From a virus: DNA of 49,416 nt. Each line of letters starts with the position of its first letter. Within the stretch, counting starts at the first letter, position 1. Below are positions 1,002 through 47,929 of the stretch, piece by piece. The position numbers and the translations under genes are program-made. The stretch covers positions 1 through 49,416 of the IMG/VR virus record IMGVR_UViG_3300042452_000467; one strand, 5' to 3'. Below the pieces are notes generated by a model. That model saw only the letters and a list, made by a program, of their open reading frames with translations, had not been told where the DNA came from and did no database searches.

Positions 1002-1556
1002 CTATACTTCTAGTTTCTCAATATCATAGTAAGAGAATCTAAAAGATACGTCGCAAGTTACTGTCGTTTCTGCATTATCAAGAGTATTAAAATTGATAGA
1101 ACCGACATAGTTTGGGAAAATGTCGCGGAATTTAATTCGGAATCTTGGATTATTTTTGTTTGAATAAATTACAAGAGTTCCGTCAGTATACACTGCAGGT
1201 CTTCTATTTGTTGCCAAACTTTGATCAAATCCTGATCTTGTTGTTCGAGCCAAATTCACATATTCTTCAAAATCAGTAGGAAATGTTGCAGAACGAATCC
1301 AATCGTGCAACTCAAACCATGGACTTAAATCTTCATTGACAAGAAACTGAGTGTTGAAGGTATCATAAATTGCCTTCTCTCCTGGACGAAACAAATCAAT
1401 GAATGGTGTAAAGTGTTGCACTTCTGTCAATGAAATGCCAGGAAGGCTTGCTGTCTGACAGAAGTATGTCACATTTGGCAATCGATCAAATGTGATTTGA
1501 AATTTATGTGGTTGTAATAGATCAGTGTTTACTGGGTTTCGCGTGAGTGCTGTCAT
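1002..1556 (-). CDS. Tail-tube-like virion structural protein (gp19 paralogue)
   Basis: A 184-residue protein lying between the capsid gene and uvsY, a place where marine T4-like phages often carry a virion protein. Reading it beside gp19 of this window (11193-11705) shows the same layout: an opening KFQITF strand, then QTASLPGIS (gp19 has KTAQLPGST), then VNEDLSPWFELHDWI (gp19 has INDEDFVIRNQLEEWM), and a C-terminal FRDIFPNYVGSINF (gp19 has FIDMFPTDISPIDV) leading into alternating beta strands. I infer a tube-fold protein, perhaps part of the tail tube, its terminator or the neck; the exact role is unknown. A strong GGAGGAG ribosome site precedes the ATG, and a late-type box lies 22 bases upstream. 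Confidence 0.7.
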   Translation of the reverse strand: MTALTRNPVNTDLLQPHKFQITFDRLPNVTYFCQTASLPGISLTEVQHFTPFIDLFRPGEKAIYDTFNTQFLVNEDLSPWFELHDWIRSATFPTDFEEYVNLARTTRSGFDQSLATNRRPAVYTDGTLVIYSNKNNPRFRIKFRDIFPNYVGSINFNTLDNAETTVTCDVSFRFSYYDIEKLEV

Positions 1557-1662: not shown

Positions 1663-2976
1663 TTACTGGTTGATGTTCAACACTTGGAATCTACGATAGT
1701 AGTAGTTTGTGTCGTTTGCGAGAGCACCAAGACCAGCTGCTGTTGCGAATGGGTTTGCTACGAGACCATAACGTGTCTTGAAGCCGACCTTTGGCTGGTA
1801 AGTTGTTGGATCAACTGCACGTACCATTTGTAGCGGAACGTATGGGCAGTAGAACAAGCCAGCGTCATAAGGTGTTGCACCCTTGTAACCAACAACAGCA
1901 TAATCTGTACCAGAGACAGAATATGGGTCAACAAACACTTTGATGCGTCCGAAGAGCAATCCAGCGAATGTGTTGCCTGTATCGTCAACCATTAGATTTG
2001 TGTTGTTTGTTAGAGCAGAGTTGTAGTCCAAAAGACCAGTCATTGAAAGAGCTGATGCAACATCGGTTGAAACGATGAGCATGTTGCCCTTGCCGCGACG
2101 GGTATCTTTTGCGATCTTATTAGCAGCACGCTCAACAGCGAACAAGAGTGACTTGTACTTTTCTACCTGCCAACGACCGCTTGTGTCGCTTGATGAAGAT
2201 AGGTTGAATTGTGCTGTTGATAGACCAGTGATACCGATGTTTGCTGTTGCATAGATCGTACGGACAACTTCGCGGTTGATTTCTGCAAGAATTTCAGTTG
2301 ACAAAATATTTGTCAATTCTGTTTCTGCATCGAGACCGTGGATTGCCTTGAGATCTTGTGCAAGTTCTAGCGTATAGGCTGCTTGCAAACCGCGTGACTT
2401 TGCTGTAACAGCAACGCGATCGATTTGGAAGCCCATATATTCTAGAGTCTTGTCTTCTGCAACTGCAGTTGTCATACCTGTACCAGTGTTGGCTAGGGTG
2501 ACGTTTGCAATGTTTGCGTTCAATGTTGCAAGTGGGTTTGCACCAGCAGCACCAGCATAATGGGTGTTTGCTTCGTTATAGAGAGCTTCACCTGTCATTG
2601 CTGTTGCGTTGGCGTATTGTGAACGCATTGCGAAAATCAAACCTGTTGGACCAGTCATTGGCTGAACGCCGCAGATGTCATAAGCCATTAGGTTTGGTAG
2701 TGCACGACGTACGAGACCAATTAGAACTGGATCAAATCCAGCAACTGGTGCACCTGCTGCGCCTGAAAGACCATTTGGTGAGCCTGTTCCCATAGCGTTA
2801 GCTGGGGATGCTTCCCATAGGTTTTGCATTGAACGAGCTTCTTCTTGTAGAGCACGCTCTTGATTTTCTAGAACGAGAGCAGTAACTGCGCGCTTGTAAG
2901 GGTCGCTGATTGCTGGGAGTTCTGGGTGATCAAGAACTGGTGCCCACTTCTTTGCATATGTTTCGTTGATATACAT
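1663..2976 (-). CDS. gp23: Major capsid protein gp23
   Basis: The 437-residue precursor of the hexameric head shell subunit, close in length to the shorter gp23 proteins of marine T4-like phages (T4 gp23 is 521 aa). Landmarks are RRALPNLMAYDICGVQPMTGP (~90-110), the hallmark N-arm motif of this family, and FAMRSQY just after it. The T4-type propeptide is visible: the first ~55 residues are charged and helical and end in NLWE followed by ASPANA. This fits the gp21 protease rule (hydrophobic-x-Glu) and predicts cleavage after Glu55. A GAGGA ribosome site lies eight bases before the ATG. There is no late box in the 25-base gap to gp22, so it is probably transcribed with gp22. No gp24-like vertex gene follows. 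Confidence 0.97.
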   Translation of the reverse strand: MYINETYAKKWAPVLDHPELPAISDPYKRAVTALVLENQERALQEEARSMQNLWEASPANAMGTGSPNGLSGAAGAPVAGFDPVLIGLVRRALPNLMAYDICGVQPMTGPTGLIFAMRSQYANATAMTGEALYNEANTHYAGAAGANPLATLNANIANVTLANTGTGMTTAVAEDKTLEYMGFQIDRVAVTAKSRGLQAAYTLELAQDLKAIHGLDAETELTNILSTEILAEINREVVRTIYATANIGITGLSTAQFNLSSSSDTSGRWQVEKYKSLLFAVERAANKIAKDTRRGKGNMLIVSTDVASALSMTGLLDYNSALTNNTNLMVDDTGNTFAGLLFGRIKVFVDPYSVSGTDYAVVGYKGATPYDAGLFYCPYVPLQMVRAVDPTTYQPKVGFKTRYGLVANPFATAAGLGALANDTNYYYRRFQVLNINQ

Positions 2977-3001: not shown

Positions 3002-3868
3002 TTAGGCTTTTGGAGCCGTTTTTGCGATTGCTTTGACATAACGAGCCATAATATTATTGGTTTGTTCTACTTCTGGTTCTTCATTAAGCATTGCTTGTTG
3101 AATTTCCTTTACCTCACTTTTCACTTGTACTTTAGTTGGGAAGTAGTTCTCGCGTAGTACTGCGAGTTTTTCTTCAAAATCACCTTCTGCGGTGAACTCC
3201 ACGCCCTCTGCGAGCGACTTCATTTTTGCTGCTTGGACTGCTGTGAGCCCTTCGCAGAAATTATCAATTGCTTTTTCTTTCTTGACTGCATTCAACTGCT
3301 CTTGAAGATCAGCGATTGCAACGTTTTGTGCTTCAATATGTTGATGAACTGTCTCAACATATTCACCTGCTTGTTCAAGTTCTGCTGCAAGTGTTTCTGC
3401 AACATCAACTTTCTCTTCAGGAATTTCGATATAATGTTCTTGGAACAATGAACGTAGACCAGAGATAAAGTCTTCAGCGAGTTCAGCACGTAGTCCTGTC
3501 TCGATGGCAACTTGATTCTCAGTCATCCATTGCTCAACAACATAATTGAGATACTCATCAACTTGTTCTGTTAGTTGATCTTTGATCTCATCATATGCTT
3601 GGGCAAGAACGGCATCGTTCTGTTCCATAACTTGTTCGAGAATGCTTTCAACGCGAGAAGACACAGCTGATTCGAAAATCAAAGTGGCTTTTGCACGGAA
3701 TTCTTCGGAAAGAGACTCGCCGTTGAAAAGAGCATCAACATCTTCTCTCATGTTTCCTTTGAATTGCTTTACCGCTTCTTTAATAGCGAGCATTCTCTCT
3801 TCACGAATTTGCTCTTCGGTAAGTTCTGTTGTTTCCATTGTTGTTTCTTCTCCGTTTACGTCATTCAT
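3002..3868 (-). CDS. gp22: Nested, in-frame gp22 scaffold start
   Basis: Inside the 1200-residue frame, Met913 is preceded by GAGGA (3880-3876) with a seven-base spacer. This is the same spacing and strength as the ribosome sites of gp18 and of the long frame itself. Starting here gives 288 residues (MNDVNGEE...), the length expected of a stand-alone gp22 and covering exactly the part that resembles it. I infer that a separate short scaffold is made alongside the long fusion, much as lambda Nu3 scaffold is made from a start inside its protease gene. The Shine-Dalgarno and frame are seen; translation is not proven. Confidence 0.6.
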   Translation of the reverse strand: MNDVNGEETTMETTELTEEQIREERMLAIKEAVKQFKGNMREDVDALFNGESLSEEFRAKATLIFESAVSSRVESILEQVMEQNDAVLAQAYDEIKDQLTEQVDEYLNYVVEQWMTENQVAIETGLRAELAEDFISGLRSLFQEHYIEIPEEKVDVAETLAAELEQAGEYVETVHQHIEAQNVAIADLQEQLNAVKKEKAIDNFCEGLTAVQAAKMKSLAEGVEFTAEGDFEEKLAVLRENYFPTKVQVKSEVKEIQQAMLNEEPEVEQTNNIMARYVKAIAKTAPKA

Positions 3869-6604
3869 GTTAGAGTCCTCAAATTGTTCATTTACTCTTG
3901 ATCCTGGTTTCTTATAACCGAGTTCTTTGATTTTGAAAGCCTGTCCTACACCACCAGCAAGACCACCAACGATGTTGGCAATCTCGTTTGGAATTGCTTT
4001 TCTTAGTTTGGTTTTCTCTCCTGTTGGAGTTCTAAAAATACCAACACCTGCTTTCTCTGGTGTTGTTGGTGCCTCTTCATAATCTTCTCTTTCACCAGCA
4101 TCGCCACGAGCAATTGGATTTGCTTCCCATGATGACAAATCATCCCATTTGCTTCCACCAGCAGTCACTGATTGTTGTGCAGGTGTCGTTGCTTGAGTTG
4201 GTTCTGATACTACAGCTGCAGCTGGTGCAGCAGCAGTTGGCTTTTTGCCGTCTTTTAATTTTTGTAGCAATTGCGTATTTGCTTCTGCTGATCCAGGAGC
4301 AGCAGTGATACCCATTGATTGTAGATATGCACTGTCTTTTCTCTTAGCATATGCATCTTTATCAGCACCGCGAATTGCAGCACCAGTTTTGCCATATCGC
4401 TGTTCATCACTCATAGCAGCTGGTTTTGCTGCAGTTACTGCAGGACGTGCTCTTACTTGAGCTGGCGATACACCAAAATCTTTTGATCCTGCTGGACGAC
4501 CAAATTTGTCATATCCAGCTGGTGTGTCAGTTCCAGGAACTGCACTTTTCTTAGTTGGTGCAACTGGTTTCTTTGCTGGCGCAGCGGCTTTTGTTGGTCC
4601 AGGAATTAATCCTAATGTTGCACCAGAAGCAGCACCTTGAAGAGCATTCAATGCTTTCTTGCCTGTTGTTGCATTTGGATCAACATCCCAACCTTTCTTA
4701 GCATCATATGCTGCAAGACCAGCTGTTACTGGTAGGGCAAGTTTTCCTGCAACTCTACCAACTGTCTTAAGCGCAGCACCAGCCTTTGATTTAGTTGCAA
4801 CTTGTGCAGTTATTGCAGCTGCTTTTTCTGCTGCAGAAATTTTCGCAGCCTTTGGACCAGATGCAGCTTTCTTACCAGCAACAACTAGTGCTTTACCTGC
4901 TTTACCAGCAGCAACACCAACACGTGCTAGTGGACCAACAAACTCATTGAGTGCTTCAAATTCTTCTTCACTGAGTGAGCTGATAAATGCATCTAATTGT
5001 TCTTCATTGAGTGCTGATAGTTCATTTAAAAGATCATCAGTTTCTTCAGCAACATTTCGTACAGCAGCACCTCTTGTTGCTGGGCGACGAGCGGCTACTT
5101 TATTTGCTCTCACGCCTCTCATGAAGTTTGATGGGCTATCTGCATCCTCATCTTCTTCTCTTTCTTGTGGTGTTGTTTGGGCAACACGTGTTGGTTGCTC
5201 AACATCATCTTGCTCTGGTGCTTCATCAGAACCTTCTTGATCACCGTATGACGCTGCCTTTGTGCGATTTGCTGCTTTATCAGCAACTGCAGTAGCAACA
5301 TCACGCGCAACATTTCCTGCTGTGTCAGATCCAGTTCTTTGTTGAATGGCATCGCCAATTCCACCAGCAACTCTGCCAACTACTGAACCGATAGCGCCAG
5401 TTTTTGCGCCTTGACTGAAGCTGCCGCCCATTGCCTTGTTTGCAAGACCACCAGCAAGAGCATCTGCTCCTGTTTGACCGATTGCAGCAGAACCAGTGGC
5501 TTTTGCCAAACCACCAGCAACTTTATTAACGATTGGTGAAGCAAGTCCAGTTACTGCGCCCAACTTGGCGCCTTGTGAGAATTTGCCACCTTGTAGTACG
5601 CTTGATACACCACCTTGTAGTGCACTCTTACCTGCTGAAAGTGCTGCTTTGCCAAGTACAGATGAACCGAGTTTTGATGCGCCAGCAGAAACTGCTTTAC
5701 CAAGCGCACTGCCTGCAATCTTTGAACCGATTCCACCCAATAGTTTGCCAGCAACTGCACCGACTGCAGTACCAACACCAGGGATGAATGAAAGAAGTGG
5801 TGCTGCTTTTGCAACAACCTTAACTGCTTTCTTTGCTACCTTACCAACAGCCTTCACACCTTTCTTAAGTGCTTTGCCGATCTTCTTTAAGAATTCAACG
5901 AGATATTCTTCGTTGAGAGACGATAATTGAATTGCGTAAATAAATTCTTCTTCTGTAAGATTTGAGATATAGTTCTCAAAATCTTCTTCAGAAAGAGTTT
6001 GCATTTCGGTGATGAATGAGGTTGATTGTTCTTGAAGAACATTAAATTGTTCTTCAGTTAATTGTTGTTCGTGGAATGCAGGAACTACAGACTCAGCAAT
6101 CAAATCAAGTAATCTTTCATCTCCAATTTCTTCTGACAATGTATCGATGAATGCGTCTGTGACAGCATCTTCACCATACTCGGCAACAAAACTTTCTAGA
6201 ATTTGAGTATACACAGCCTGTTCGCCGTGTTCTGAAATAAGACTTTCGAGGATAACTTGTTCGCCATGCTCTGCAATGAGAGCTTCCATCATTGCTTCTG
6301 GCTTTTCTTCTTCCTCTCCTTCTTCCTCTTCTTCTTCTTCTTTTTCTTCAGTTTCTTCTGATTCGTTTTCGACTGTCTTCATTTCTTCAGCAGGAGCTCC
6401 AGGTTGACCTGGCTTTGGTGATGCTTCCATTGATTGAGAAGCTGCATCACCAACAGCAGTAACATCTCCTGTTGTCATTTCTCCACCTAAATCTACTGGC
6501 GGATTCATTAACATGTCTGACATTGGCAGTGGTTCTTTTCCTGCGCCTGCAACAGACGCTGCAAGAATTTCTGCTGCTGATTCATGTAATGATTTATGTT
6601 TCAT
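3002..6604 (-). CDS. gp22: Giant scaffold precursor: 912-residue extension fused to gp22
   Basis: A 1200-residue reading frame whose last ~288 residues are the gp22 prohead scaffold (T4 gp22 is 269 aa). The scaffold part is highly helical and acidic, with FNGESLSEEFRAKATLIFESAV, WMTENQVAIETGLRAELAEDFI and LFQEHYIEIPEEKVDV. The extension is modular: a Glu-rich run (80-101); three similar helices ending HGEQ/HGEQ/YGED (110-150); LSEE/LTEE/LNEE repeats (182-240); a very basic FLKKIGKALKKGVKAVGKVAKK block (238-260); a Gly/Ala-rich hydrophobic stretch (265-420); an acidic linker; a second LNEEQLDAFISSLSEEEF (532-549) with another basic Gly/Ala region (560-680); and an Ala/Pro-rich part. Its own ATG has AGGAG seven bases upstream and a perfect late box. 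The extension's function is unknown; an internal head protein freed by gp21 is possible. Confidence 0.85.
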   Translation of the reverse strand: MKHKSLHESAAEILAASVAGAGKEPLPMSDMLMNPPVDLGGEMTTGDVTAVGDAASQSMEASPKPGQPGAPAEEMKTVENESEETEEKEEEEEEEGEEEEKPEAMMEALIAEHGEQVILESLISEHGEQAVYTQILESFVAEYGEDAVTDAFIDTLSEEIGDERLLDLIAESVVPAFHEQQLTEEQFNVLQEQSTSFITEMQTLSEEDFENYISNLTEEEFIYAIQLSSLNEEYLVEFLKKIGKALKKGVKAVGKVAKKAVKVVAKAAPLLSFIPGVGTAVGAVAGKLLGGIGSKIAGSALGKAVSAGASKLGSSVLGKAALSAGKSALQGGVSSVLQGGKFSQGAKLGAVTGLASPIVNKVAGGLAKATGSAAIGQTGADALAGGLANKAMGGSFSQGAKTGAIGSVVGRVAGGIGDAIQQRTGSDTAGNVARDVATAVADKAANRTKAASYGDQEGSDEAPEQDDVEQPTRVAQTTPQEREEDEDADSPSNFMRGVRANKVAARRPATRGAAVRNVAEETDDLLNELSALNEEQLDAFISSLSEEEFEALNEFVGPLARVGVAAGKAGKALVVAGKKAASGPKAAKISAAEKAAAITAQVATKSKAGAALKTVGRVAGKLALPVTAGLAAYDAKKGWDVDPNATTGKKALNALQGAASGATLGLIPGPTKAAAPAKKPVAPTKKSAVPGTDTPAGYDKFGRPAGSKDFGVSPAQVRARPAVTAAKPAAMSDEQRYGKTGAAIRGADKDAYAKRKDSAYLQSMGITAAPGSAEANTQLLQKLKDGKKPTAAAPAAAVVSEPTQATTPAQQSVTAGGSKWDDLSSWEANPIARGDAGEREDYEEAPTTPEKAGVGIFRTPTGEKTKLRKAIPNEIANIVGGLAGGVGQAFKIKELGYKKPGSRVNEQFEDSNMNDVNGEETTMETTELTEEQIREERMLAIKEAVKQFKGNMREDVDALFNGESLSEEFRAKATLIFESAVSSRVESILEQVMEQNDAVLAQAYDEIKDQLTEQVDEYLNYVVEQWMTENQVAIETGLRAELAEDFISGLRSLFQEHYIEIPEEKVDVAETLAAELEQAGEYVETVHQHIEAQNVAIADLQEQLNAVKKEKAIDNFCEGLTAVQAAKMKSLAEGVEFTAEGDFEEKLAVLRENYFPTKVQVKSEVKEIQQAMLNEEPEVEQTNNIMARYVKAIAKTAPKA

Positions 6605-6629: not shown

Positions 6630-6637
6630 TATTTATA
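6630..6637 (-). promoter_or_regulatory. Late promoter TATAAATA for gp22
   Basis: An exact T4 late promoter box on the minus strand, 25 bases before the ATG at 6604, in the 37-base gap after gp21. Confidence 0.85.
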
Positions 6638-6641
6638 AAAC

Positions 6642-7286
6642 TTATAACTTTGACAAAAAGTTCTCAAAGATCTTCAAAGAGATGTCGTCGAGCTGTTTTT
6701 GCTTTGCTGTTTTAATTTCTTCATAGTATGCATTTACATCAAGTTCTTTGACGAGACCGTTATCCCACACCCACTCTTTACCTTCCATAATACCTTGAAC
6801 GAAAGCACCTGGAGCTGATGGATCTGCAACAATATCAGCTGCAGTAGCGAGATAGAAGTCTGGTTGAACAATGTTTACACCACCTTCGTTTTTGAGAGAA
6901 CCCATTCCGCGCGAAGAAACGCCGAGAGTAGCCCCTGCTTCCATCAAATTCTTGGCAATTTTACCCATAGGCGTGTCAAGAACTTTTGCCTTACCTTCAA
7001 AGACGTTTCCGTTCTTTGTAATATTAGTGATCATATGAGAGACGCGCTCTAGATTAATCGTTGGAGACTCTGGATGTCCGAGCTCACCGAATGCGCGATT
7101 CTTATCAACGTACTCTTTCATATAACGATTTACTTCATTTTCGAGAACGCTAACTGGATATGAGCGCCCATTACGATTCTTTGTTTCAGCAACAAGAAAT
7201 GGACCTTGAATGTAAAGTGTCTTCACACCGTTATTGTCTTCGGTGATATACTTTACTTCTTCGACTGTTTCTGTAATCAATTTCAT
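6642..7286 (-). CDS. gp21: Prohead core protease gp21
   Basis: The serine protease (214 aa, as in T4) that matures the prohead by cutting gp22, gp23 and core proteins after hydrophobic-x-Glu. The family signature is complete: NRNGRSYPVSVLENEV (~37-52), the catalytic histidine in GELGHPE (His71), and the nucleophile region GVSSRG (Ser124/125). The C-terminal helix is Lys-rich and probably a self-cleaved tail. It sits directly upstream of its substrates gp22 and gp23, and its ATG follows the preceding gene by four bases, so it belongs to the gp20-gp21 operon. Confidence 0.95.
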   Translation of the reverse strand: MKLITETVEEVKYITEDNNGVKTLYIQGPFLVAETKNRNGRSYPVSVLENEVNRYMKEYVDKNRAFGELGHPESPTINLERVSHMITNITKNGNVFEGKAKVLDTPMGKIAKNLMEAGATLGVSSRGMGSLKNEGGVNIVQPDFYLATAADIVADPSAPGAFVQGIMEGKEWVWDNGLVKELDVNAYYEEIKTAKQKQLDDISLKIFENFLSKL

Positions 7287-7290
7287 TTTA

Positions 7291-8202
7291 CTATTCCTTT
7301 AATCCAAGAGATGCTCTTTTTCTTAATGAGCGTTTTCTTTTCATTATAGCACGAGACATCTTTGCTTTTCTTTTAATTTTACCAATACGAGCGCCACGTT
7401 TTCTGCGAAGTCTTTCAGCAGCAGACATACGCTTGAGTTTGCCACCGCGAATTGTGTATCCTTTTACAGCAGATACTTTTTTGCGACGCTGCACTTTTCC
7501 ACCACGAACACGAGCCTTGATTACTTTCGTACGACCTTGACGCATCACGTTTGGATTGCGCTTTGCCTCATCAAGTTGCTCTGTTTCTTCTGATGGTGTT
7601 GTATGAAGTTCATTATGTTCGTCGCGGAGTGATTCTGCTGTTCTTCTTAACTCATATGCGCCACCCCAGCTCTTTACTCTCTCGTATCCTTTTGGAACTG
7701 GAAGTCCACCTGGAGGAGCGGGAACTTGGCGTGGCGTTGGCATAAATTTGTCAGACTCGCCAAGTTCAACTGGAAGATTGAGCGCAATTGCATTCTTATA
7801 TGCATTTAATTTTTGTTGAGCAAAACTATTAAGTGTCTTATAAATTTCTTCCTTAATGTTTGATCGATCAACATAGTTCTTTAGTTCTTTTGATTTTACA
7901 ATACGAGGATTTAAGTATTGCATAATCTTAATTTTTAATTCGTTTTTTTGTTCTTTTTCTTTTTGTTTTGCTTCATCTTCTTCATCATCATATTCGTTGT
8001 TATCAATTTCCACATCTTGTGCTGGCATTTCTTCTGCAATAACCTTGTTAATTTTATCAATCATTGTATCTTTTGGTTTAATGCCGTATTTTTTCATCTG
8101 TACTTTTTCTTTTTGGCTCACTGAGTTTTCTACATTTGATCCTTTTCTATCCTGAAATTCAGGAGAACCAAATCGATCTTCAAAACTTTCTTGTGTATTC
8201 AT
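7291..8202 (-). CDS. Prohead core-region protein with very basic C-terminus
   Basis: 303 residues of two contrasting halves. The N-terminal half is acidic and helical, including DNNEYDDEEDEAKQKEKEQK (~67-86) and a Pro-rich bridge. The last ~80 residues are extremely Arg/Lys-rich (for example VRGGKVQRRKKVSAVKGYTI, and MKRKRSLRKRASLGL at the end). The two halves are joined by EQLDE followed by AKRN, which fits the gp21 cleavage rule, so maturation could release a DNA-neutralising basic peptide inside the head. It occupies the gp68 position of T4, but I cannot claim homology. Its start overlaps the preceding stop by four bases. The virion-core role is inferred from position, the candidate cleavage site and composition. 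Confidence 0.6.
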   Translation of the reverse strand: MNTQESFEDRFGSPEFQDRKGSNVENSVSQKEKVQMKKYGIKPKDTMIDKINKVIAEEMPAQDVEIDNNEYDDEEDEAKQKEKEQKNELKIKIMQYLNPRIVKSKELKNYVDRSNIKEEIYKTLNSFAQQKLNAYKNAIALNLPVELGESDKFMPTPRQVPAPPGGLPVPKGYERVKSWGGAYELRRTAESLRDEHNELHTTPSEETEQLDEAKRNPNVMRQGRTKVIKARVRGGKVQRRKKVSAVKGYTIRGGKLKRMSAAERLRRKRGARIGKIKRKAKMSRAIMKRKRSLRKRASLGLKE

Positions 8203-8966
8203 TCTACTAGTAGTGCGAAATCTTTAACTTTGTTAAATGTTTCTTGACTTTCAAGAAGCATATCTGATAATCTTTCTTTATTCTTTTCATTTAAATTATC
8301 AAAAACATTTTTAATTTTATCCATAACAACTTTTTCAACAAGAATTTCTTCGCCTGTGGCAAAAATTACTGGAACTGTTTCTTCATTTACATATCCTGCA
8401 GCAGCTGCAGTTGCAGCGCGCAATCCACCAACTTTTGCACCTGGTCTGAGTGTATTTACAGTACTGAATCCTGGAGCAAATGCGTCATATGGAACTGGAA
8501 ATGAGAGACCATATTTGTTATCAATATAAAGAACAACACGTTTTCCATCTGGAAACATACGAAGTGCTAATCTTTTCAACAGAAGCATTGGAGGAGGATT
8601 GAATTCAGATTGCTCATTTATCATTTTATTCTCTTCCTTAATGTCTCTTAGAACACGTCTAAATTGCGAGTCTGGTGAATTAACAAGCACTGGAATTGGC
8701 ACAATTTGATTGATTTTAGAAACAGCATCTTGTTTTTGACGCCCTAATCTTCTAAAAATATCAGAACTGCTTGCTTTCGGATTTTTTGCTGATATATCAA
8801 CATAATCGGCGATTGCTTTTGTTGCCACAGCTGAATTTAGGTTCATCTTAAATCTGCTTTTAAGAGCAGGAATTCTATTCTGCAAACGACTTTTAATAGA
8901 TGCAGTTGGGCTTGAAGCCTTTGCTGCCTCTGTTAAATTTAAATTGTCTTTTTCTTTATCAGACAT
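8199..8966 (-). CDS. Conserved-position head-region protein, function unknown
   Basis: 255 residues. The N-terminus is basic and helical (KSRLQNRIPALKSRFKMNLN). The middle is a compact mixed domain with FPDGKRVVLYIDNKYGLSFP, and the C-terminus is a charged helix, LNEKNKERLSDMLLESQETF. It lies between the gp67-like gene and the basic core protein and overlaps both neighbours (8 and 4 bases). It is therefore translated with the prohead core set and is probably a prohead component; a highly diverged gp68 is conceivable. I do not recognise a known fold. Several Leu/Ile-x-Glu sites could be cut by gp21, but such sites are common in helices. Confidence 0.55.
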   Translation of the reverse strand: MSDKEKDNLNLTEAAKASSPTASIKSRLQNRIPALKSRFKMNLNSAVATKAIADYVDISAKNPKASSSDIFRRLGRQKQDAVSKINQIVPIPVLVNSPDSQFRRVLRDIKEENKMINEQSEFNPPPMLLLKRLALRMFPDGKRVVLYIDNKYGLSFPVPYDAFAPGFSTVNTLRPGAKVGGLRAATAAAAGYVNEETVPVIFATGEEILVEKVVMDKIKNVFDNLNEKNKERLSDMLLESQETFNKVKDFALLVE

Positions 8967-9199: not shown

Positions 9200-10843
9200 T
9201 TATTGCTGTGGTTGTTGCGCCGCAGCTTGTTGTTCAGCAGCTGCTGCCTGTTCAGGTGCTACCATCTGTTCTTGTGGAGGAGCGTACTGAGCCTGTATTT
9301 GCATAATCTGTTGATTCATCGCGGCTTCTTCTTGAGCCTTTTGAATCATCTCTTGTTGTTCTTTCATTCTTTCGAGTTCAATTTGAACATCAATCTTACC
9401 AACTTCTTCTTCATCTAGATGTAGAACGTTCTTCTGCACCCATGCCTTCGAGAAGTATCTTCCTGTAAACTGCTCGACCTGCATCAACAATTGCATTCTA
9501 GAGTTGATAAGATCTGTTTCGCGGAGTTCTGAGAAGTTATTATCCTTCAAGAAGTCATAATGAATCTTTTCTCGTAGTTCTTTCCACTCATCGATAGAAG
9601 CGATACCTTTTAGAGCGAGTTGACGCTCCATAAGTTCATCGAATAGAACTGTAAACTTGGAACGAAGTTTCTCAATAAACTTGTTAAATTTAATTTCGTC
9701 GCGTGTGATCTCTTGTGTGCGACCGAGCATAAAGCCTTGTCCTGATTCCAATCGAGTAATTGGAATGTTTAATGACTTATAGAGTTTCTGCTCGAAGTAT
9801 TTCACATCTGACATTTCGCCAAGATTTTGTCCTGGAGGAAGTGTAGTGATTTCTGTCGACTTACCCTCACCACGACGAGGAATCCAGAAATCTTCCATGA
9901 TTGACATAAACTTGCGATCATCTTTAACTTCACCAGTTGAAGAATCATACACAACTTTGTTTCGGAACTTTGTCATAAAGTCGCGAAGATATTGATCTGC
10001 CTTGATGCGTGGCATGTTACCAACGTCAATATAGAACACACGACGTTCTGGTGCACGTGATAGGCGATAAATTACAACAGCATCTTCAACCATGCGCAAC
10101 TGATTGAGTGGCTTAATGGCTTTGTGCAAATATGACAAAACCATTTGACGTTTTGGATCAAGAAGTCCAGAGTTAATATTGACAATCGCATCAACTGCGA
10201 TCTTAAGAGATGCATCACCAAGAGTACTGACTGATTGTGTTCCTTGAACAGTTGCCTTATCATTGAACACATAGAACTCTTGAACACCAGAAATTAGATC
10301 AGCACCAGTTCGTGGATCTTTTTTCTTTTCGACTGTGCGAACTTTTTTAATCTTTCTTGGATCGATATAAACTAATTCTTGAATGCCAAGTTGTGGTTGA
10401 GCCCGATCAACAAGGACTTGAAAGAATAATCTTCCATCAATATACCAATCTCTAAAGAGACCAGATCCGTCATTAGAGAAGTTAAGAAGTTTCAAGACAT
10501 TCTTAAATTCGTCACGGATGGCTTCTTTGATTTCTTCAGGCTGTTCAAGATCATCAAGAATGATTGTAACTGATTTGCCTGACTCATCGTGAACAATTGC
10601 TTCGTTCACAATTTCATCGATTGCAGATTCGAGTTCTGGTTGGAGTGACATTTCTCGATAGCGAGAAACAAGGTCAGCTTCATTCTTAAAACTGGCTTCA
10701 AGGTCTAGATATGTACCAAAATACCCACCTGCGCTGACTTCAATAGCACCATCGTCAGCAATAGGTGCAGTGATTTGTGGTTGAATATCTGTTTCTGGCT
10801 TTTTGCGTACAAGTTCAAAGCCAAATAAATTAATACCTGCCAT
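9200..10843 (-). CDS. gp20: Portal vertex protein gp20
   Basis: A 547-residue subunit of the dodecameric portal through which DNA is packaged and to which the neck attaches (T4 gp20 is 524 aa). Typical gp20 stretches are ESAIDEIVNEAIVHDE (~74-89), RDWYIDGRLFFQVLVD, IYRLSRAPERRVFYIDVGNMP, MEDFWIPRRGEGKSTEITTLP and LGEMSDVKYFEQKLYKSLNIP. The C-terminus ends in a Gln/Ala-rich, low-complexity tail (QMVAPEQAAAAEQQ) not needed for the fold. It heads the gene block gp20, gp67-like, two core genes, gp21. Confidence 0.97.
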   Translation of the reverse strand: MAGINLFGFELVRKKPETDIQPQITAPIADDGAIEVSAGGYFGTYLDLEASFKNEADLVSRYREMSLQPELESAIDEIVNEAIVHDESGKSVTIILDDLEQPEEIKEAIRDEFKNVLKLLNFSNDGSGLFRDWYIDGRLFFQVLVDRAQPQLGIQELVYIDPRKIKKVRTVEKKKDPRTGADLISGVQEFYVFNDKATVQGTQSVSTLGDASLKIAVDAIVNINSGLLDPKRQMVLSYLHKAIKPLNQLRMVEDAVVIYRLSRAPERRVFYIDVGNMPRIKADQYLRDFMTKFRNKVVYDSSTGEVKDDRKFMSIMEDFWIPRRGEGKSTEITTLPPGQNLGEMSDVKYFEQKLYKSLNIPITRLESGQGFMLGRTQEITRDEIKFNKFIEKLRSKFTVLFDELMERQLALKGIASIDEWKELREKIHYDFLKDNNFSELRETDLINSRMQLLMQVEQFTGRYFSKAWVQKNVLHLDEEEVGKIDVQIELERMKEQQEMIQKAQEEAAMNQQIMQIQAQYAPPQEQMVAPEQAAAAEQQAAAQQPQQ

Positions 10844-11192: not shown

Positions 11193-11705
11193 TTATCCAA
11201 CAAAGACTTCTGCAGAATTCCAATACTGATATTGGAACGTTACTGCGTATTCTTCGATTGCATCATTTGCATCCCAGCTGACATCGATTGGTGAAATATC
11301 TGTTGGGAACATATCAATGAAAGTATATGACTTGATAATGTTTCCTTGTTTACCATACTGATAAACTTCAGCATCAAATGTATATTGGCTATAGAATGCT
11401 TCAGCAAGATTACTTTCGTGACCGTTAATTCTTGCCATCCATTCTTCCAACTGATTGCGAATAACAAAGTCTTCATCATTGATCACTGTTACACTCCATT
11501 CAGGGAATGTTCTGTTTCCAGCAACCTTTACAGTTCTACCAAAATAAGGAATTTCAATCGTTCCTACTGTTGAGCCTGGAAGCTGTGCAGTTTTTGCAGT
11601 AAAAGTAAGTTTTTGATCAAAGACTGGAATATTGACTTCAAACAGATTTGGGCGTGCGCCGTCGAAAGGAAAATTTCCTTTAAAGTCTGTAATATTGAAA
11701 GGCAT
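11193..11705 (-). CDS. gp19: Tail tube protein gp19
   Basis: A 170-residue subunit (T4 gp19 is 163 aa) that stacks as hexamers inside the sheath. Tube-fold landmarks are RPNLFEVNIP (~18-27), KTAQLPGSTVGTIEIPYFGR (~38-57), NRTFPEWSVTVINDEDF and the C-terminal YTFIDMFPTDISPIDVSWD followed by a final beta strand YAVTFQYQYW. It follows the sheath gene directly, as in T4, with AGGAG at a normal distance and its own late box 21 bases upstream. Confidence 0.96.
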   Translation of the reverse strand: MPFNITDFKGNFPFDGARPNLFEVNIPVFDQKLTFTAKTAQLPGSTVGTIEIPYFGRTVKVAGNRTFPEWSVTVINDEDFVIRNQLEEWMARINGHESNLAEAFYSQYTFDAEVYQYGKQGNIIKSYTFIDMFPTDISPIDVSWDANDAIEEYAVTFQYQYWNSAEVFVG

Positions 11706-36325: not shown

Positions 36326-38948
36326 ACCAGCGGAGAATGACAATACCTGAGCCACCAGTTCCACCTTGAGCGCCATTGGAATTAGGTCCACCTGGATTCC
36401 AGCCACCACCTCCACCACCGCCACCTGTATTGGTTGTGGCTGAAGTGCTTACAAATCCTGGACCAACTGCGCCATTACCACCGCCTCCAGTGCCACCAAC
36501 GCCACCTAGTGTGTTATTGGTGCTACTATTATGACAGCCACCACCACCGCCACCAGCATAATTTACTGCAATACCTGTGATTGTAGAGGATACTCCTGAA
36601 CCACCAGAACCAGCGCCAGTTGCAGCTGCTGCAGATGTTCCATTTGCACCTGCACCTCCTCCACCACCACCAGAATAAGTTCCACCTGGTGAATTATAAT
36701 TTGCAGTTCCGCCACCATTTCCTTGCGACGGAGAAGTTGCTGGCGTATTTCCTGCGCCTCCAACCCCACCGAGAGATGGTTCACCTATGGCGCCACCGCC
36801 ACCAGAACCACCAGCAACTCCATTTTGATAAGCAGGACCAGCAGAATTATATGCTCCACCACCACCACCACCATTAGATGTAATTGTGCTAAATGTTGAG
36901 TTGCCTCCAGAACCGCCGCTTGATGTTGCATAAGGACTACCAGTTGAACCAGTTGCTGCAGTACCGCCAGCACCCACAGTAACAGTATAAGTTTGACCTG
37001 CAGTTACAGATAACCCACTTCCAACGCGAAGACCTCCTGCACCACCACCACCTGCACTTAACCAACCACCACCGCCTCCGCCAGCAACAACGAGATATTC
37101 AACCTGTGTCGCGCCTGTTGGTGCAGTCCATGAACCTGAAGAAGTAAACGTGGCTAGATTTGCATTCGCACCAGAGATTGCTTTGATGATAACTATTCCA
37201 GATCCGCCAGCACCACCCGCGCCATAGGTGTTAGGATTCCATCCACCGCCACCGCCACCACCGCCAGTGTTTGTTATTGCATTATTTCCTGCATATGGAA
37301 CTGTTGCTGGGTTTCCAGAATTCCCATCGCCGCCACCGCCAGCACCACCAACCCCACGTGTTGTATTTTGCTGTGAACCACCACCACCGCCACCAGAATA
37401 AAAAGTAGAAACACCAGACATCGTAGATGCTATGCCAATTCCACCATTTCCACCTGCAGAACTAGTTCCAGTATTACCTGATGCTCCTCCGCCACCTCCT
37501 CCGCCTCCACCATATCCAGGTGGTGCATTTCCAGCTGCATTGCCGCCATTATTTCCTTGTGATGGACTTACAGCAGGTATATTTCCTGTTCCGCCTGGAC
37601 CAGAACCACCAGATGATCCACCACCACCACCCGATGCACCATTAAATCCTAGATTCGGCGAACCTGCAGCTGGAGAATTGTGACTGCCTCCACCGCCGCC
37701 ACCAGAAGAAAACACGTTTGATGATGCATTGCTTGTAAGAGCAATAATAGATACGCTACCATTTGATGCAGCAGTTGATGATGGATATAATCCACCATTA
37801 CCACCAGCACCCACTGTAATTGTATATGATGTTGCTGGTGTAACTGAGTATCCAGATCCAGTTCTGAACCCACCTGCTCCTCCACCACCACCTAAAAATC
37901 CTCCACCAGCTCCGCCACCAACTACAAGATAATCGATTAAAGTTGTATTGGCTGGAGCAGTCCAAGTTGTTGATGTTCTGAAGACCCAGACATTGGCAGC
38001 AGCATTTGCGTTTGGTCTTGTGTATTTGATGACTACGACGCCAGAGCCACCTGAACCAGAAGCATAAGTTGTTCCTGGATTTGTGCTACCACCACCTCCA
38101 CCACCACCTGTACTTGCAGTGCCGTTATTGGCTGTGCCGTTAGGAACAGAATTTCCACCACCACCAGCACCACCAGTGCTAGCTCCTGCAGCAAATGTTG
38201 CGCCGCCAGCACCACCACCAGCGTAAGTTACAGAAGCACCAGCAATTGTAGAGGAGGATCCAGCACCGCCATTACCACCAACTCCTGGTGATGATCCATT
38301 ATTGCCAACTGCTCCTGCGCCACCTCCACCACCAGCTCCACCTAATGGACCAGCAGCTCCTGTGCCACCATTGTTTCCTTGCGATGGAGATGTGCTTGGC
38401 GTATTTCCGACACCACCGTTGCTTGTGGTTGATCCGCCGCCGCCACCGCCTGAGCCACCACTTAATCCTATGTGTAGTGGTGATGCAGCAGCACCGCCAC
38501 CTCCACCACCCGCCGATGTTATCGCATTTGGAGAATTACCAAATACAGAAGAAGATCCATTTGAACCAAGTGCATTAGTAGCAGGAGAAACGCCATTTCC
38601 ACCTGCTCCAACAGTTACTGTATAAGATACGCCAGGAGTTACAGAATATCCAGTGCCTGTTCTAAATCCACCAGCACCGCCGCCACCTCCACCATAGCCA
38701 GATGAAGGTCCAGCCCCACCACCACCTCCACCACCGACAACAAGATATTCGACTTCGCTTACACCTGTTGGTGCTGTCCACGTAGTTGTATTAGCGAATA
38801 CTTCAACAATAATTTCTTGTGCGGCGACTGGTCCTCTAATAAAATCATAATATCGCATCTGCGTAATATCTTCAGCACGCCAAATGCCTGCTGTATTTGC
38901 AGCATTACTGCCTAGCAAATTGCGTTTACCAAGGAAAAGATAACTCAT
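36321..38948 (-). CDS. Glycine-rich fibre 3 (three modules, 875 residues)
   Basis: A ~40-residue N-terminus (MSYLFLGKRNLLGSN) is followed by three ~280-residue modules that start near 45, 310 and 595. Each opens with a strand pair containing TWTAP..V..VEYLVVGGG, continues TPG.SYTVTVGAGG, SSVF, SAGGGGGG, then SPSQGNNGG, VTYAGGGGGG and ends GGSGIVIIK. The runs of four to eight Gly separated by short polar or Pro segments resemble the polyglycine-II sandwich adhesins of phage S16/T2 gp38 more than collagen, because there is no Gly-x-y periodicity. This is a likely distal adhesin. It overlaps its ~110-residue upstream partner by four bases. Confidence 0.78.
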   Translation of the reverse strand: MSYLFLGKRNLLGSNAANTAGIWRAEDITQMRYYDFIRGPVAAQEIIVEVFANTTTWTAPTGVSEVEYLVVGGGGGGGAGPSSGYGGGGGGAGGFRTGTGYSVTPGVSYTVTVGAGGNGVSPATNALGSNGSSSVFGNSPNAITSAGGGGGGAAASPLHIGLSGGSGGGGGGSTTSNGGVGNTPSTSPSQGNNGGTGAAGPLGGAGGGGGAGAVGNNGSSPGVGGNGGAGSSSTIAGASVTYAGGGAGGATFAAGASTGGAGGGGNSVPNGTANNGTASTGGGGGGGSTNPGTTYASGSGGSGVVVIKYTRPNANAAANVWVFRTSTTWTAPANTTLIDYLVVGGGAGGGFLGGGGGAGGFRTGSGYSVTPATSYTITVGAGGNGGLYPSSTAASNGSVSIIALTSNASSNVFSSGGGGGGSHNSPAAGSPNLGFNGASGGGGGSSGGSGPGGTGNIPAVSPSQGNNGGNAAGNAPPGYGGGGGGGGGASGNTGTSSAGGNGGIGIASTMSGVSTFYSGGGGGGSQQNTTRGVGGAGGGGDGNSGNPATVPYAGNNAITNTGGGGGGGGWNPNTYGAGGAGGSGIVIIKAISGANANLATFTSSGSWTAPTGATQVEYLVVAGGGGGGWLSAGGGGAGGLRVGSGLSVTAGQTYTVTVGAGGTAATGSTGSPYATSSGGSGGNSTFSTITSNGGGGGGAYNSAGPAYQNGVAGGSGGGGAIGEPSLGGVGGAGNTPATSPSQGNGGGTANYNSPGGTYSGGGGGGAGANGTSAAAATGAGSGGSGVSSTITGIAVNYAGGGGGGCHNSSTNNTLGGVGGTGGGGNGAVGPGFVSTSATTNTGGGGGGGGWNPGGPNSNGAQGGTGGSGIVILRWS

Positions 38949-39280
38949 GTCAATTGAAGAATGCTGAGTGAAACATCGATGTGTGCGTTAGAATTTGCAT
39001 TTGCGGAGATATAATCGCCAGCTTCGAGAACGAGTTTGCCAGTCAAGAATGTCGTTGCAGAATCAGCAGGAACAGGAATGTCTCTTGCCAAATACTTTGT
39101 GCTTGCTCCACTGGCATCAGTTGCAGTGACAGAGAACATTGCAGCATTCGCGCCATCACTATTTGCAATCTGCCCCATGAACACAATCGAAGTTGTAAGT
39201 GCTGGGGAAGTATAAAGGTTTTGTGAAGTAATCGCTGCTGTCGTTAGCGTTGCGTTTACAAATTTAAATGTTTCTGCCAT
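38945..39280 (-). CDS. Small beta-rich protein preceding glycine-rich fibre 3
   Basis: 111 residues, strand-rich: FKFVNATLTTAAITSQNLYT, ALTTSIVFMGQIANSDG, TGKLVLEAGDYISANANSN and a final ISILQLT-like strand. Layout and the LTxGDxISANA...xISI ending match the two ~108-residue proteins that precede the other glycine-rich fibres (42043-42369 and 47930-48256), although the sequence is more diverged. The stop overlaps the fibre start (ATGA), which couples them. Probably a fibre base or a decoration protein. Confidence 0.65.
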   Translation of the reverse strand: MAETFKFVNATLTTAAITSQNLYTSPALTTSIVFMGQIANSDGANAAMFSVTATDASGASTKYLARDIPVPADSATTFLTGKLVLEAGDYISANANSNAHIDVSLSILQLT

Positions 39281-39292
39281 TATTGACTCCGA

Positions 39293-39460
39293 TTAGGACA
39301 ACGCGATGACGAGTCCGATTGATGCTTTTGTGTTTGCTTGCGCATATGCATTATTTGCCTGTACATAAGCAGCCGTTGGCGCAGCACCAAGAGCAGTCAA
39401 TGCTGCTGCTGATGTATTTGCTCCTGTTCCACCTTGTGCTACTGATACGACTACTGGCAT
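39293..39460 (-). CDS. 55-residue fibre-motif peptide
   Basis: Starts MPVVVSVAQGGTGANTSAAA and continues LTALGAAPTAAYVQANNAYA. The GGTGANT...A..LG block is a standard piece of phage tail-fibre shafts, and AYVQANNAYAQAN is a seven-residue (heptad) repeat also present in the 58-residue gene and in the 670-residue fibre here. A GAGG ribosome site precedes it. It could be a stand-alone shaft peptide that trimerises with a partner, or a remnant left by fibre recombination; being the first gene of a repeated cassette favours the former. Confidence 0.6.
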   Translation of the reverse strand: MPVVVSVAQGGTGANTSAAALTALGAAPTAAYVQANNAYAQANTKASIGLVIALS

Positions 39461-39476
39461 GAATGTAACCTCTTTG

Positions 39477-39484
39477 TATTTATT
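39477..39484 (-). promoter_or_regulatory. Possible late box AATAAATA
   Basis: A late-type box directly after the stop of glycine-rich fibre 2 in the reading direction, 16 bases before the ATG at 39460. Confidence 0.4.
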
Positions 39485-42043
39485 TTATGACCAACGAAGG
39501 ATGACGATTCCAGAGCCACCATTGCCGCCTATAGATTGTGGTTGTGAACTGCTTTGACCTGATCCACCACCGCCACCACCGAGTCCTGCTGTTCCTGCTG
39601 TTGCAATTGCACCAGATGGTGTTGAAGCAGCACCTGCGCCACCACCGCCAGTTCCACCTGCTCCTGCATTGCCTCCTGGATTTGGATTGTTGCCACCGCC
39701 TCCACCACCAGCATATGTAACTGCTGCACCAGTGATGGTTGAACTTAATCCTGCGCCACCATTGCCACCTTGGTTTGATGCACCATTACTTCCTGCGGCA
39801 CCTGCGCCTCCACCGCCGCCTCCACAATACAGCGGCTGACCTGTTCCATTACCACCACTATTTCCTTGTCCTGGAGTTCCTGCTGATCCTGTGGTAGAAT
39901 AACCATCACCACCACCAGCGCCGCCACCAGAACCTCCTGATGACGCAGCAGGATTATTTGGTCCGTATCCACCACCAAATCCTCCGCCAATAGAAGTAAC
40001 TGCATTAAATGTACTGTTGCTTCCTACTGTACCTGTTGTTGTTAAACTGCCACTTGGACCTAAACTCCAACCAGTTCCGCCGCCACCAACAGTTACTGTG
40101 TATGTTTGTCCAGGAGTAACAGCAAGATTAGTTCCTGTTCTTAAACCACCAGCACCACCGCCACCACCAACCCATGCTCCACCACCGCCACCACCAGCAA
40201 CAACGAGATATTCGACTTGCGTTGCTCCAGTAGGTGCAGTCCAAGAACCAGAGGATGTAAATGTTGCTACGTTTGCGTTAGCACCAGAAACTGCTTTAAT
40301 AATAACAATACCTGAACCACCAGCACCACCTATTCCGCCAACATTTGGACCAGGAGTAAATCCACCGCCGCCGCCGCCACCGCCTGTTCCTGCTGTTCCT
40401 GAAGCGGCAGTAGTTGTGCTAGAAGGAGAAGGCGCACCTGCTCCTCCGCCACCAGCTCCACCAGCACCATTTGTGCCGTTTTGAGAACCTCCACCACCGC
40501 CGCCAGCGTATGTTACTGAGGTGCCAGATAATGATGATGCAGTTCCTGTTCCACCTGCTCCACCAGCCGTAGAGATTCCATTACTGCCAACTGCACCAGC
40601 ACCACCGCCACCGCCGCCACCATAATTTGGCGCGCCTGGACCACCGTTTCCCCCATTATTACCTTGCGATGGTGCAGTTCCTGGCACATTTCCAGAAGCA
40701 CCTGAGTTACTCCAACCTGATCCACCACCAGAACCACCTGCTAAACCAATATTTCCAGGAGCTCCTGGTGATCCAGGATTATTGCCATTTGCTCCTCCCC
40801 CTCCGCCAGAAGATGAGACATTTGCTGAGGAGTTTGATGTAAGCGCAAAAATAGATACAGAGCCGTTTGCTCCTCTTGCATTGGCGTCACCAGCCGAAGG
40901 ATATGTTCCACCGTTACCACCAGATCCACCAGCGCCCACTGTAACTGTGTAAGATGTATTTGATGTAACTGTATATCCAGTTCCAGTACGGAATCCACCT
41001 GCGCCACCGCCGCCTCCCCAATTGCCGCCGCCACCGCCGCCACCACCAACCACCAAATAATCAATCAATGTTGTTCCAGCTGGAGCAGTCCAAGTTGTTG
41101 ATGTTCTGAAGACCCAAACATTGGCATTAGCGTTTGCGTTTGATTTTGTGTATTTAAGAATAACTATACCAGAACCGCCAGCACCACCAACTACGGCACC
41201 AGATGTTGATGGACCAGGAGAACTTCCCCCACCGCCACCGCCGCCAGTGTTTGTTGTTCCAGCAGTTACTGCACCGCCATTTGTACTTCCAGTTCCACCT
41301 CCACCAGAACCACCAGGACCTGCAGTTCCAGGAGCAGCACCGCCTCCTCCACCACCAGCATAAGTTACACTAGAACCTAAAATTGTAGATGTAGTACCGT
41401 CACCACCTGCGCCTGCAATATTTGTGCTTGGACTTGCGTTGCCACCAACACCACCAGCTCCACCGCCACCACCACCGCCACGAGATGCTGGAAAATTATT
41501 ATTTGATGTGCCCCCATTATTTCCTTGCGACGGACTTACAGAAGGGACATTGCCTAAACCAAATATATTTGGTGTTCCTGTAGAACCGTCCCAATTTGCA
41601 CCACCACCAGAACCGCCGTCCGCCCCCTTTATATTTGATGGAGTTCCATTATAACTTCCACCATAACCGCCGCCAGCAGATGTGATGGTGGAAAATATAG
41701 AACTCGATCCGTTAGTTGAACTGTTATATCCACCACTTCCACCAGCACCAACAGTTACTGTATATGTGTTACCTGGAGTCACTGCAAATCCAGTGCCTGT
41801 TCTGAATCCACCAGCACCGCCGCCACCATGACCAACAACTCCTGGTCCAGAACCACCAGCTCCACCGCCACCAACAACCAAATATTCAACACTTGTCACA
41901 CCTTCTGGTGCAGTCCATGTAGTAGTATTGGCAAATGTTTCTACAACAATTTCAAAAACAGTTGGTGCTGGCGTTGCCCCTCGCGGATTTAGTATTCGCG
42001 AAGAACTTCGAAGTGTGTTGAGGAGAAACGACTTTGTTGCCAT
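39485..42043 (-). CDS. Glycine-rich fibre 2 (three modules, 852 residues)
   Basis: Same architecture and module order as the other large glycine-rich fibres. The N-terminus is MATKSFLLNTLRSSSRILNP. Module I has TTTWTAPEGVTSVEYLVVGG, module II NVWVFRTSTTWTAPAGTTL, and module III ATFTSSGSWTAPTGATQVEY. Each has a TVTVGAGG or TVTVGGGG strand; SPSQGNNGG or APSQGNNGG appears in the first two. The chain ends GGSGIVILRWS. Corresponding modules of different fibres are more alike than modules within one fibre, so the three-module gene was duplicated as a whole. It overlaps its upstream partner by one base. Confidence 0.78.
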   Translation of the reverse strand: MATKSFLLNTLRSSSRILNPRGATPAPTVFEIVVETFANTTTWTAPEGVTSVEYLVVGGGGAGGSGPGVVGHGGGGAGGFRTGTGFAVTPGNTYTVTVGAGGSGGYNSSTNGSSSIFSTITSAGGGYGGSYNGTPSNIKGADGGSGGGANWDGSTGTPNIFGLGNVPSVSPSQGNNGGTSNNNFPASRGGGGGGGAGGVGGNASPSTNIAGAGGDGTTSTILGSSVTYAGGGGGGAAPGTAGPGGSGGGGTGSTNGGAVTAGTTNTGGGGGGGSSPGPSTSGAVVGGAGGSGIVILKYTKSNANANANVWVFRTSTTWTAPAGTTLIDYLVVGGGGGGGGNWGGGGGAGGFRTGTGYTVTSNTSYTVTVGAGGSGGNGGTYPSAGDANARGANGSVSIFALTSNSSANVSSSGGGGGANGNNPGSPGAPGNIGLAGGSGGGSGWSNSGASGNVPGTAPSQGNNGGNGGPGAPNYGGGGGGGAGAVGSNGISTAGGAGGTGTASSLSGTSVTYAGGGGGGSQNGTNGAGGAGGGGAGAPSPSSTTTAASGTAGTGGGGGGGGFTPGPNVGGIGGAGGSGIVIIKAVSGANANVATFTSSGSWTAPTGATQVEYLVVAGGGGGGAWVGGGGGAGGLRTGTNLAVTPGQTYTVTVGGGGTGWSLGPSGSLTTTGTVGSNSTFNAVTSIGGGFGGGYGPNNPAASSGGSGGGAGGGDGYSTTGSAGTPGQGNSGGNGTGQPLYCGGGGGGAGAAGSNGASNQGGNGGAGLSSTITGAAVTYAGGGGGGNNPNPGGNAGAGGTGGGGAGAASTPSGAIATAGTAGLGGGGGGSGQSSSQPQSIGGNGGSGIVILRWS

Positions 42044-42369
42044 TAGGTGATTTCTGAACCGAAGATGCTAATTGATAAACTGTTTGCTGATGCGTTTGCT
42101 GAAATCACATCAGTGTTGCCAAGAGTGAGCCCCAAAGTCAAAGCAATTGAATCGCTTGCTGCAGCAATTGCATCATAAGCAATGTAGTGCTGATTGGCTA
42201 ATGCTGCTCCAGCAGGTTGAACTGCGAGTCTGTAGTTTACATTTGAACTTGTTCTATTTGTAATCACAACCGTTGAAACAACTGCTTGAGTTGCAGCAGG
42301 GACAGTATAGACATTTGCTACCGCTGTTGTTACTGCTGCTTGCCCTAATACTTTATAATTTGTTGGCAT
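42043..42369 (-). CDS. Small beta-rich protein preceding glycine-rich fibre 2
   Basis: 108 residues: MPTNYKVLGQAAVTTAVANV, YTVPAATQAVVSTVVITNRT, NYRLAVQPAGAALANQHYIA, LTLGLTLGNTDVISANASAN. It is a clear paralogue of the 108-residue protein at 47930-48256 over its whole length. The pattern of short hydrophobic strands with TVPA..T.VVS...ITNR is typical of small phage structural beta-sandwiches; function unknown. The stop and fibre start share one base. Confidence 0.7.
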   Translation of the reverse strand: MPTNYKVLGQAAVTTAVANVYTVPAATQAVVSTVVITNRTSSNVNYRLAVQPAGAALANQHYIAYDAIAAASDSIALTLGLTLGNTDVISANASANSLSISIFGSEIT

Positions 42370-42370
42370 C

Positions 42371-42580
42371 TTACATACCTGCTAATAAAAATGGATTGAA
42401 CCCTGCATCTGCAGCGGTAAAGGAAACATTCGCGTTTCCTGTTGTTGTATTCGTTACAGTCACTTGAACAGTTCCAGTGTTCACGAAATTATAATTTGTA
42501 ACACCAAGATTGACGCGAGCTGCAGCAGCTGTATTCGCTCCTGTTCCACCGACATCTATTGTTGCGACTGTTGTTGACAT
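42371..42580 (-). CDS. 69-residue fibre-motif protein
   Basis: Starts MSTTVATIDVGGTGANTAAA, then ARVNLGVTNYNFVNTGTVQV, then VTNTTTGNANVSFTAADAGF. It has the shaft motif GGTGANT...A.VNLG, and its second half repeats the NFVNTATVQITV...GNANISF segment found near the N-terminus of the 670-residue fibre. Its stop is followed one base later by the start of the 108-residue gene. It is the first member of the second fibre cassette. Confidence 0.65.
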   Translation of the reverse strand: MSTTVATIDVGGTGANTAAAARVNLGVTNYNFVNTGTVQVTVTNTTTGNANVSFTAADAGFNPFLLAGM

Positions 42581-42590
42581 TTTCTATTCC

Positions 42591-42598
42591 TATTTATT
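42591..42598 (-). promoter_or_regulatory. Possible late box AATAAATA
   Basis: A late-type box next to the stop of the 297-residue gene, but only 11 bases before the ATG at 42580, so the leader would be very short. Confidence 0.3.
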
Positions 42599-43492: not shown

Positions 43493-43504
43493 AGTTTATT
43501 CACC

Positions 43505-45517: not shown

Positions 45518-45540
45518 TTAACACTCTTAGATTTATTGAA

Positions 45541-45548: not shown

Positions 45549-45555
45549 TGCGCAA

Positions 45556-47928: not shown

Positions 47929-47929
47929 A

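Follow-up and report, generated by a model that had tools for sequence, protein, structure and literature searches.

In phage lambda, the scaffold Nu3 is made from an in-frame start inside the larger C gene (Shaw and Murialdo 1980, as cited in PMC8508860). In the herpesvirus pair UL26/UL26.5, a long scaffold with an N-terminal passenger is accompanied by an abundant short scaffold identical to its C-terminus, and the long form, VP21, supplies about 10% of the scaffold (PMC12474303). In T4, gene 21 has an annotated internal-start product, gp21' (AF158101), which is reported to be essential (PMC9026906). T4 also holds internal proteins as cargo in its core by means of a capsid-targeting sequence, with release by gp21 and delivery with the DNA (PMC9026906). 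Here we describe gene 22 in a linear viral fragment of 49,416 nucleotides (49.4 kb; IMG/VR record IMGVR_UViG_3300042452_000467), referred to below as the window, which carries T4-like head genes on its minus strand. Comparison with related genes leads us to consider it likely that this gene encodes two scaffold proteins in one frame, a giant gp22 and a nested short scaffold. The features central to this reading are the following.

3002..6604, minus strand: giant gp22 open reading frame (ORF), 1200 amino acids (aa), 126 kDa; homologs with the same frame have 1112-1388 aa
6612..6616, minus strand: full-length Shine-Dalgarno (SD) sequence AGGAG, a 5-nucleotide (nt) match
3876..3880, minus strand: nested SD sequence GAGGA, a 4-nt match; GAGG occurs in all five giant lineages
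3002..3868, minus strand: nested cistron from ATG 3868, predicted to encode a T4-sized gp22 scaffold of 288 aa and 32.6 kDa

Putative nested start site

The C-terminus of the 1200-residue frame is a T4-type head scaffold gp22, as a preliminary description of this stretch had proposed: PHROG 237 (gp22) matches residues 906-1195 (expectation value, E, 7e-69), and Pfam T4_CASP matches residues 952-1193 (E 1e-61). The same description had pointed to an in-frame ATG with GAGGA seven bases upstream, and both are indeed present (ATG at 3868-3866, GAGGA at 3880-3876, gap of 7 bases). It had called the site as strong as the best of the neighbouring genes, which is slightly overstated; the duplex energy with the anti-SD is near that of gp23 (-5.9 against -6.1 kcal/mol), but 11 of the 39 gene starts in the window equal or beat -5.9 kcal/mol (median -4.0). 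When spacing is ignored, 10 of 181 internal ATGs in the window reach the same energy. Within the giant ORF there are 21 internal in-frame ATGs, and only ATG 3868 has a well-spaced SD; a second with an SD, at 3838, has marginal spacing. Around the nested ATG (-30 to +30) the mRNA folding energy is -3.1 kcal/mol, among the weakest 3.9% of in-frame positions (median -10.0) and comparable to the values at the real starts of the full-length protein (-3.5) and of gp23 (-3.3).

Relatives were recovered from viral contigs by a profile of the scaffold domain. The giant forms of gp22 fall in a single clade (support 1.0) whose sister is a short form (L047), and comprise five lineages: window/L004/L005/L042, L006-L007, L008-L012, L043-L044 and L219. 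Comparison of the internal site among these relatives, which the preliminary description had recommended, revealed GAGG and a well-spaced in-frame ATG at the insert/scaffold junction in all five lineages, with the linker upstream diverged or replaced. As in the lambda C/Nu3 arrangement, a candidate start lies in frame inside the larger gene and has a ribosome site to itself, and relatives retain both. In L043, an insertion of 57 residues follows the nested ATG and leaves the site undisturbed. The 143 short gp22 frames contain 1388 internal ATGs, of which 65 (4.7%) have an SD this well placed in front of them, as against 112 of 112 gp22 starts tested. The sequences at the nested site are as follows.

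Window: GAGGACTCTAACATG
L005: GAGGAATCTAACATG
L042: GAGGATTCTAACATG
L007: GAGGAATTACATATG
L012: GAGGGACAGACAATG
L043: GAGGATTCGAATATG
L219: GAGGATTCAAACATG

Insert within gp22

Of the distinct gp22 frames that are closed upstream, 152 in all, 143 have at most 531 aa (mostly 350-450) and nine have 1112-1388 aa; none falls between 531 and 1112 aa. An N-terminal motif, L-x-E-[ST]-A-A-E-I-L and variants, is common to the giant and to most ordinary relatives of 360-530 residues, and places the giant with the marine T4-like gp22 group (LHESAAEIL in the giant; LSESAAEIL and variants in most short relatives). Many short gp22 begin M[SA]KTLSESAAEILKAS...DLGG, and the giant begins MKHKSLHESAAEILAAS...DLGG. 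In the short relatives about 110-200 codons separate the start from the scaffold domain downstream, and this start corresponds in position to 6604. These alignments identify 6604 as the usual start of gp22: the conserved N-terminus has not moved, and the linker between it and the scaffold holds an insert of about 770 residues (a slash below marks a predicted gp21 cleavage point).

6482..6604, minus strand: conserved gp22 N-terminus, residues 1-41, MKHKSLHE/SAAEILAAS...DLGG
3869..6481, minus strand: acidic linker and variable insert, about residues 42-912, from alignments; homologs in giant gp22 only
5795..6304, minus strand: helical module, residues 101-270, all-helical, acidic-to-basic; confident AlphaFold model with a predicted local distance difference test (pLDDT) score of 87.5
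5024..5893, minus strand: site-free segment 1, residues 238-527, no L/I-x-E, isoelectric point (pI) about 9.9, Gly/Ala-rich
3926..4942, minus strand: site-free segment 2, residues 555-893, no L/I-x-E, pI about 10, basic, Gly/Ala/Pro-rich

Because the short relatives share the N-terminus of the giant, the extra sequence is a linker insert and not cargo fused in front, and we rejected an unrelated gene fused ahead of a complete gp22 on the same grounds. This modifies the initial proposal of a normal gp22 made beside a giant with an N-terminal cargo, the two parts meeting exactly at ATG 3868. Its two products are favored by the conservation of SD and ATG, by low mRNA structure and by a homology boundary at the ATG (homology to L007 returns at 3866); however, the N-terminus of the giant is gp22's own, with the roughly 770 residues inside the linker, and ordinary gp22 starts upstream. 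The proposal also held that absence of the internal site from relatives without the extension would speak against it. The short relatives do lack the site, yet this is no refutation, since their translation begins upstream and an internal site is not needed.

The linker that received the insert varies in size, being almost absent from T4 gp22 (269 aa) and long in S-PM2 gp22 (392 aa). In the N-terminal part of giant gp22 the ratio of nonsynonymous to synonymous divergence (dN/dS) is 0.27-0.52, as in coding, constrained sequence, and the frame is open across the insert/scaffold junction in every giant lineage despite many indels; therefore the fusion itself has been kept. The insert is nevertheless the most variable part of the gene. 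A different insert of about 125 residues occupies the same linker in a 507-aa gp22 (L031:5194-6714, also L035), from which it appears that the gp22 linker may be able to accept inserts repeatedly. The short gp22 of L112 (518 aa) has a linker with LSEE-type helical repeats followed by a basic stretch, like a small giant module. In HTVC008M (KC465899; L135:3604-3963), an annotated 116-aa ORF before gp22 resembles a split-off N-terminal half of gp22; the reading frame seems to shift within an A-rich run, whether genuinely or through a sequencing error.

The cleavage rule of T4 gp21 is a cut following L/I-x-E (PMC9026906). In every giant checked, LHE/S at residue 8 fits this rule and resembles a capsid-targeting propeptide, so that the giant, as is typical of T4 internal proteins, has a short N-terminal peptide ending in L/I-x-E. 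Further L/I-x-E sites cluster at residues 112-237, 528-554 and from 894 on, including the scaffold part, where they are predicted gp21 targets; none occurs at 238-527 or 555-893. These two segments have net charges of +13 and +22, and the remainder of the giant is mostly acidic. They are predicted to survive gp21, although low Glu alone would remove L/I-x-E sites, and the gaps are thus no proof of selection. The AlphaFold model of full-length giant gp22 reached a pLDDT of only 42. For the 170-residue module (residues 101-270) neither PDB nor viral structures yielded a fold match, and profile searches turned up no credible relative of solved structure. Phage records (tblastn), seven contigs that carry a short gp22 and the other proteins of the window gave no homolog of the insert, and the viral contigs had none beyond giant gp22 itself; matches of residues ~620-700 to annotated endolysins and tail proteins (E 0.1-7) were not used.

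Two accounts of the insert can be compared. According to the first, which we put forward tentatively as a plausible model, the gp22 linker would be a swappable cargo carrier: a fast-changing, basic, Gly/Ala-rich payload, co-assembled with the nested scaffold, freed by gp21 and ejected with the DNA. According to the second, which we find rather doubtful, the insert would stand in for gp67, gp68 and the internal proteins, as a structural spacer or size-setting core, and would be destroyed along with the scaffold. The second account concerns the insert only and is compatible with a nested start, so the probability given to it does not exclude that of two scaffold products. It would fit the window, where the interval from gp20 to gp21 shows no recognisable homolog of gp67 or gp68, as well as the acidic, helical N-terminal module, which is like core proteins, and a very weak match to the head-scaffold family PHROG 1049 (E 0.03). 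However, a T4-like gp21 should leave unshredded the two long basic segments that lack L/I-x-E in the window, and the variability of the insert suits a swappable cargo.

One product or two

It is also conceivable, but in our judgment unlikely, that giant gp22 is the sole product and that the internal SD and ATG are by-products of a conserved junction peptide, NExxE[DE]xxM. In four of the five lineages (N/Y)E-x-x-E-[DE] precedes the Met, the SD is not very improbable once the amino acids are given, and the short relatives manage without a nested start. Against this, L012 encodes another peptide around its GAG (NEGQTM) but still spaces GAGG and ATG by the same 8 bases, and therefore the conserved element is not the peptide. 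Moreover, the Glu codon of the nested SD is GAG in every sequence, although these genes use GAG for 13-32% of Glu residues and the neighbouring codons for Asp, Ser and Asn vary synonymously between lineages. The low mRNA structure at the nested site also argues against a sole giant product. Nor is the junction peptide kept as a gp21 site; L/I-x-E is present there in L039 and L007 and absent from the window, L012 and L043, and we rejected this candidate.

Several observations nonetheless count against two products. Given the amino acids and the codon usage of the gene, the probability of an SD at the nested Met is 0.13-1.0 per lineage, and the codon-conditioned product is 0.009 over the four lineages tested and about 0.04 when the window is set aside and the other three are taken; conservation of the nested SD could be due in part to conserved amino acids. 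Since the giants form one clade, the nested site was probably acquired once and then inherited. The nested SD, at 4 nt, is moderate, the site in L219 is more structured (folding energy -8.2), and the nested product would be without the N-terminal motif carried by the ordinary gp22 of the group. In addition, cleavage and cargo release as proposed above rest on the T4 gp21 rule and not on the protease of this phage. Suppression of synonymous change after the nested ATG gave a weak signal, which is not used as evidence.

DNA homology to other giants is lost in the insert and returns at 3866 (against L007), 3834 (against L044) and 3820 (against L010). Between the window and L004, synonymous divergence (dS) is 0.47 in residues 1-912 and 0.04 in residues 913-1200, and the change, near residue 900, has the look of a recombination boundary shortly before the nested SD. 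The homology boundary at the nested ATG, and the likeness of the site to an old gene start, would suit a fading relic of a time when gp22 was a shorter, separate cistron to which an upstream gene was then fused, internal initiation being now irrelevant; but this is very improbable, as decay would be expected with dS of ~1 or more between lineages upstream of the junction and all five keep the site, and fusion of a separate gene is not the simplest history because the N-terminal motif of the giant is already in frame with the scaffold in ordinary relatives, the sister L047 among them.

Locus and transcription

The order gp20 - gp21 - gp22 - gp23 in the window is of the T4 type when compared with T4, HTVC008M and S-PM2.

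9200-10843, minus strand: gp20, head gene upstream of gp21
6642..7286, minus strand: gp21 prohead protease (PHROG 207; Peptidase_S77), upstream neighbour of gp22
6630..6637, minus strand: late-promoter-type box TATAAATA, before the full-length gp22 start
1663..2976, minus strand: gp23 major capsid protein (PHROG 138), downstream neighbour of gp22

In 109 of 117 relatives the 120 nt before the gp22 start contain the box TATAAATA, which we take to be a T4-type late promoter, at 22-32 nt from the ATG; chance could account for a single copy in the window, but not for conservation across relatives. Between 3868 and 6604 no TATAAATA was found, even with one mismatch, this being the only type of box looked for. 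By this search the short form has no separate promoter of the UL26/UL26.5 kind, and therefore one mRNA would yield the short product through internal initiation, as in lambda C/Nu3 and T4 gene 21/21'.

Elsewhere in the window, a protein encoded between gp20 and gp21 (8199-8966, minus strand) begins MSDKEKDNLNLTE/AAKAS, and its N-terminal L-x-E/AA, which resembles the gp22 motif, suggests a core protein. Downstream of gp23 is a second tail-tube-like gene (1002-1556, minus strand; PHROG 45), the usual copy being at 11193-11705. The region 38945-48256 (minus strand) contains paired genes with similar N-termini, resembling duplicated fibre-type genes (39485-42043 with 45556-47928, and 42043-42369 with 47930-48256).

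Discussion

Under the favored reading of two scaffold proteins from one frame, translation from 6604 would yield the 126-kDa gp22 with its variable insert of ~770 residues in the linker, and ribosomes would also initiate at ATG 3868 on the same mRNA to yield a 33-kDa, T4-sized scaffold. The short form would be the bulk of the scaffold and the giant form a minor partner, which we infer to co-assemble through the shared C-terminus and thereby to keep the insert inside the prohead. Cleavage by gp21 at L/I-x-E sites would then free two basic, Gly/Ala-rich fragments alongside the DNA, and the cargo would be delivered with it. The copy number of T4 gp22 is about 580 (PMC9958956). With this number, borrowed from T4, a core would weigh 73 MDa at 126 kDa per copy and 19 MDa at 32.6 kDa, and it is because an all-giant core would be so heavy that a short form is plausible and a mixed core attractive.

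The arrangement resembles described systems in part. Like lambda C/Nu3, the two predicted products would share a C-terminal scaffold part; in lambda, however, the N-terminal part is a protease. The insert that takes its place in the present gene is basic, helical and Gly/Ala-rich, gp22 is the scaffold, and the protease, gp21, has a gene of its own. Herpesvirus UL26/UL26.5 would be the closest working model, by analogy, for a mixed core of long and short scaffold, but UL26.5 is a separate gene within UL26, while no late-promoter box precedes the nested start here, and the passenger is not a protease. An internal start of translation, as predicted here, is annotated for T4 gene 21, which is also a prohead-core gene and belongs to this gene cluster; its truncation is 22 residues by the AF158101 coordinates (Met45 in the review PMC9026906), and it has no large insert. 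The gp22 of Kyanoviridae and marine T4-like phages (S-PM2, 392 aa; PHROG 237) agrees with the giant in gene position, in the scaffold domain and in a long N-terminal region that includes an acidic linker, but is 360-530 aa long, without the giant insert and without a conserved nested start. Finally, the T4 internal proteins are likewise core-held, as the insert may be, but are encoded by separate small genes, whereas the candidate cargo here lies within the scaffold itself.

A gp22 of this size with a conserved nested start was found neither in the literature searched nor, by sequence, in 50,697 phage records. Nested scaffolds are already known in lambda and herpesviruses, and what we describe is a variant of that arrangement. 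If both products are made, T4-like phages would have reached the lambda and herpesvirus solution independently, and would possess a route for loading large proteins into the head by way of the scaffold and not by separate targeted genes. Automatic annotation would, in that case, list one protein in place of two.

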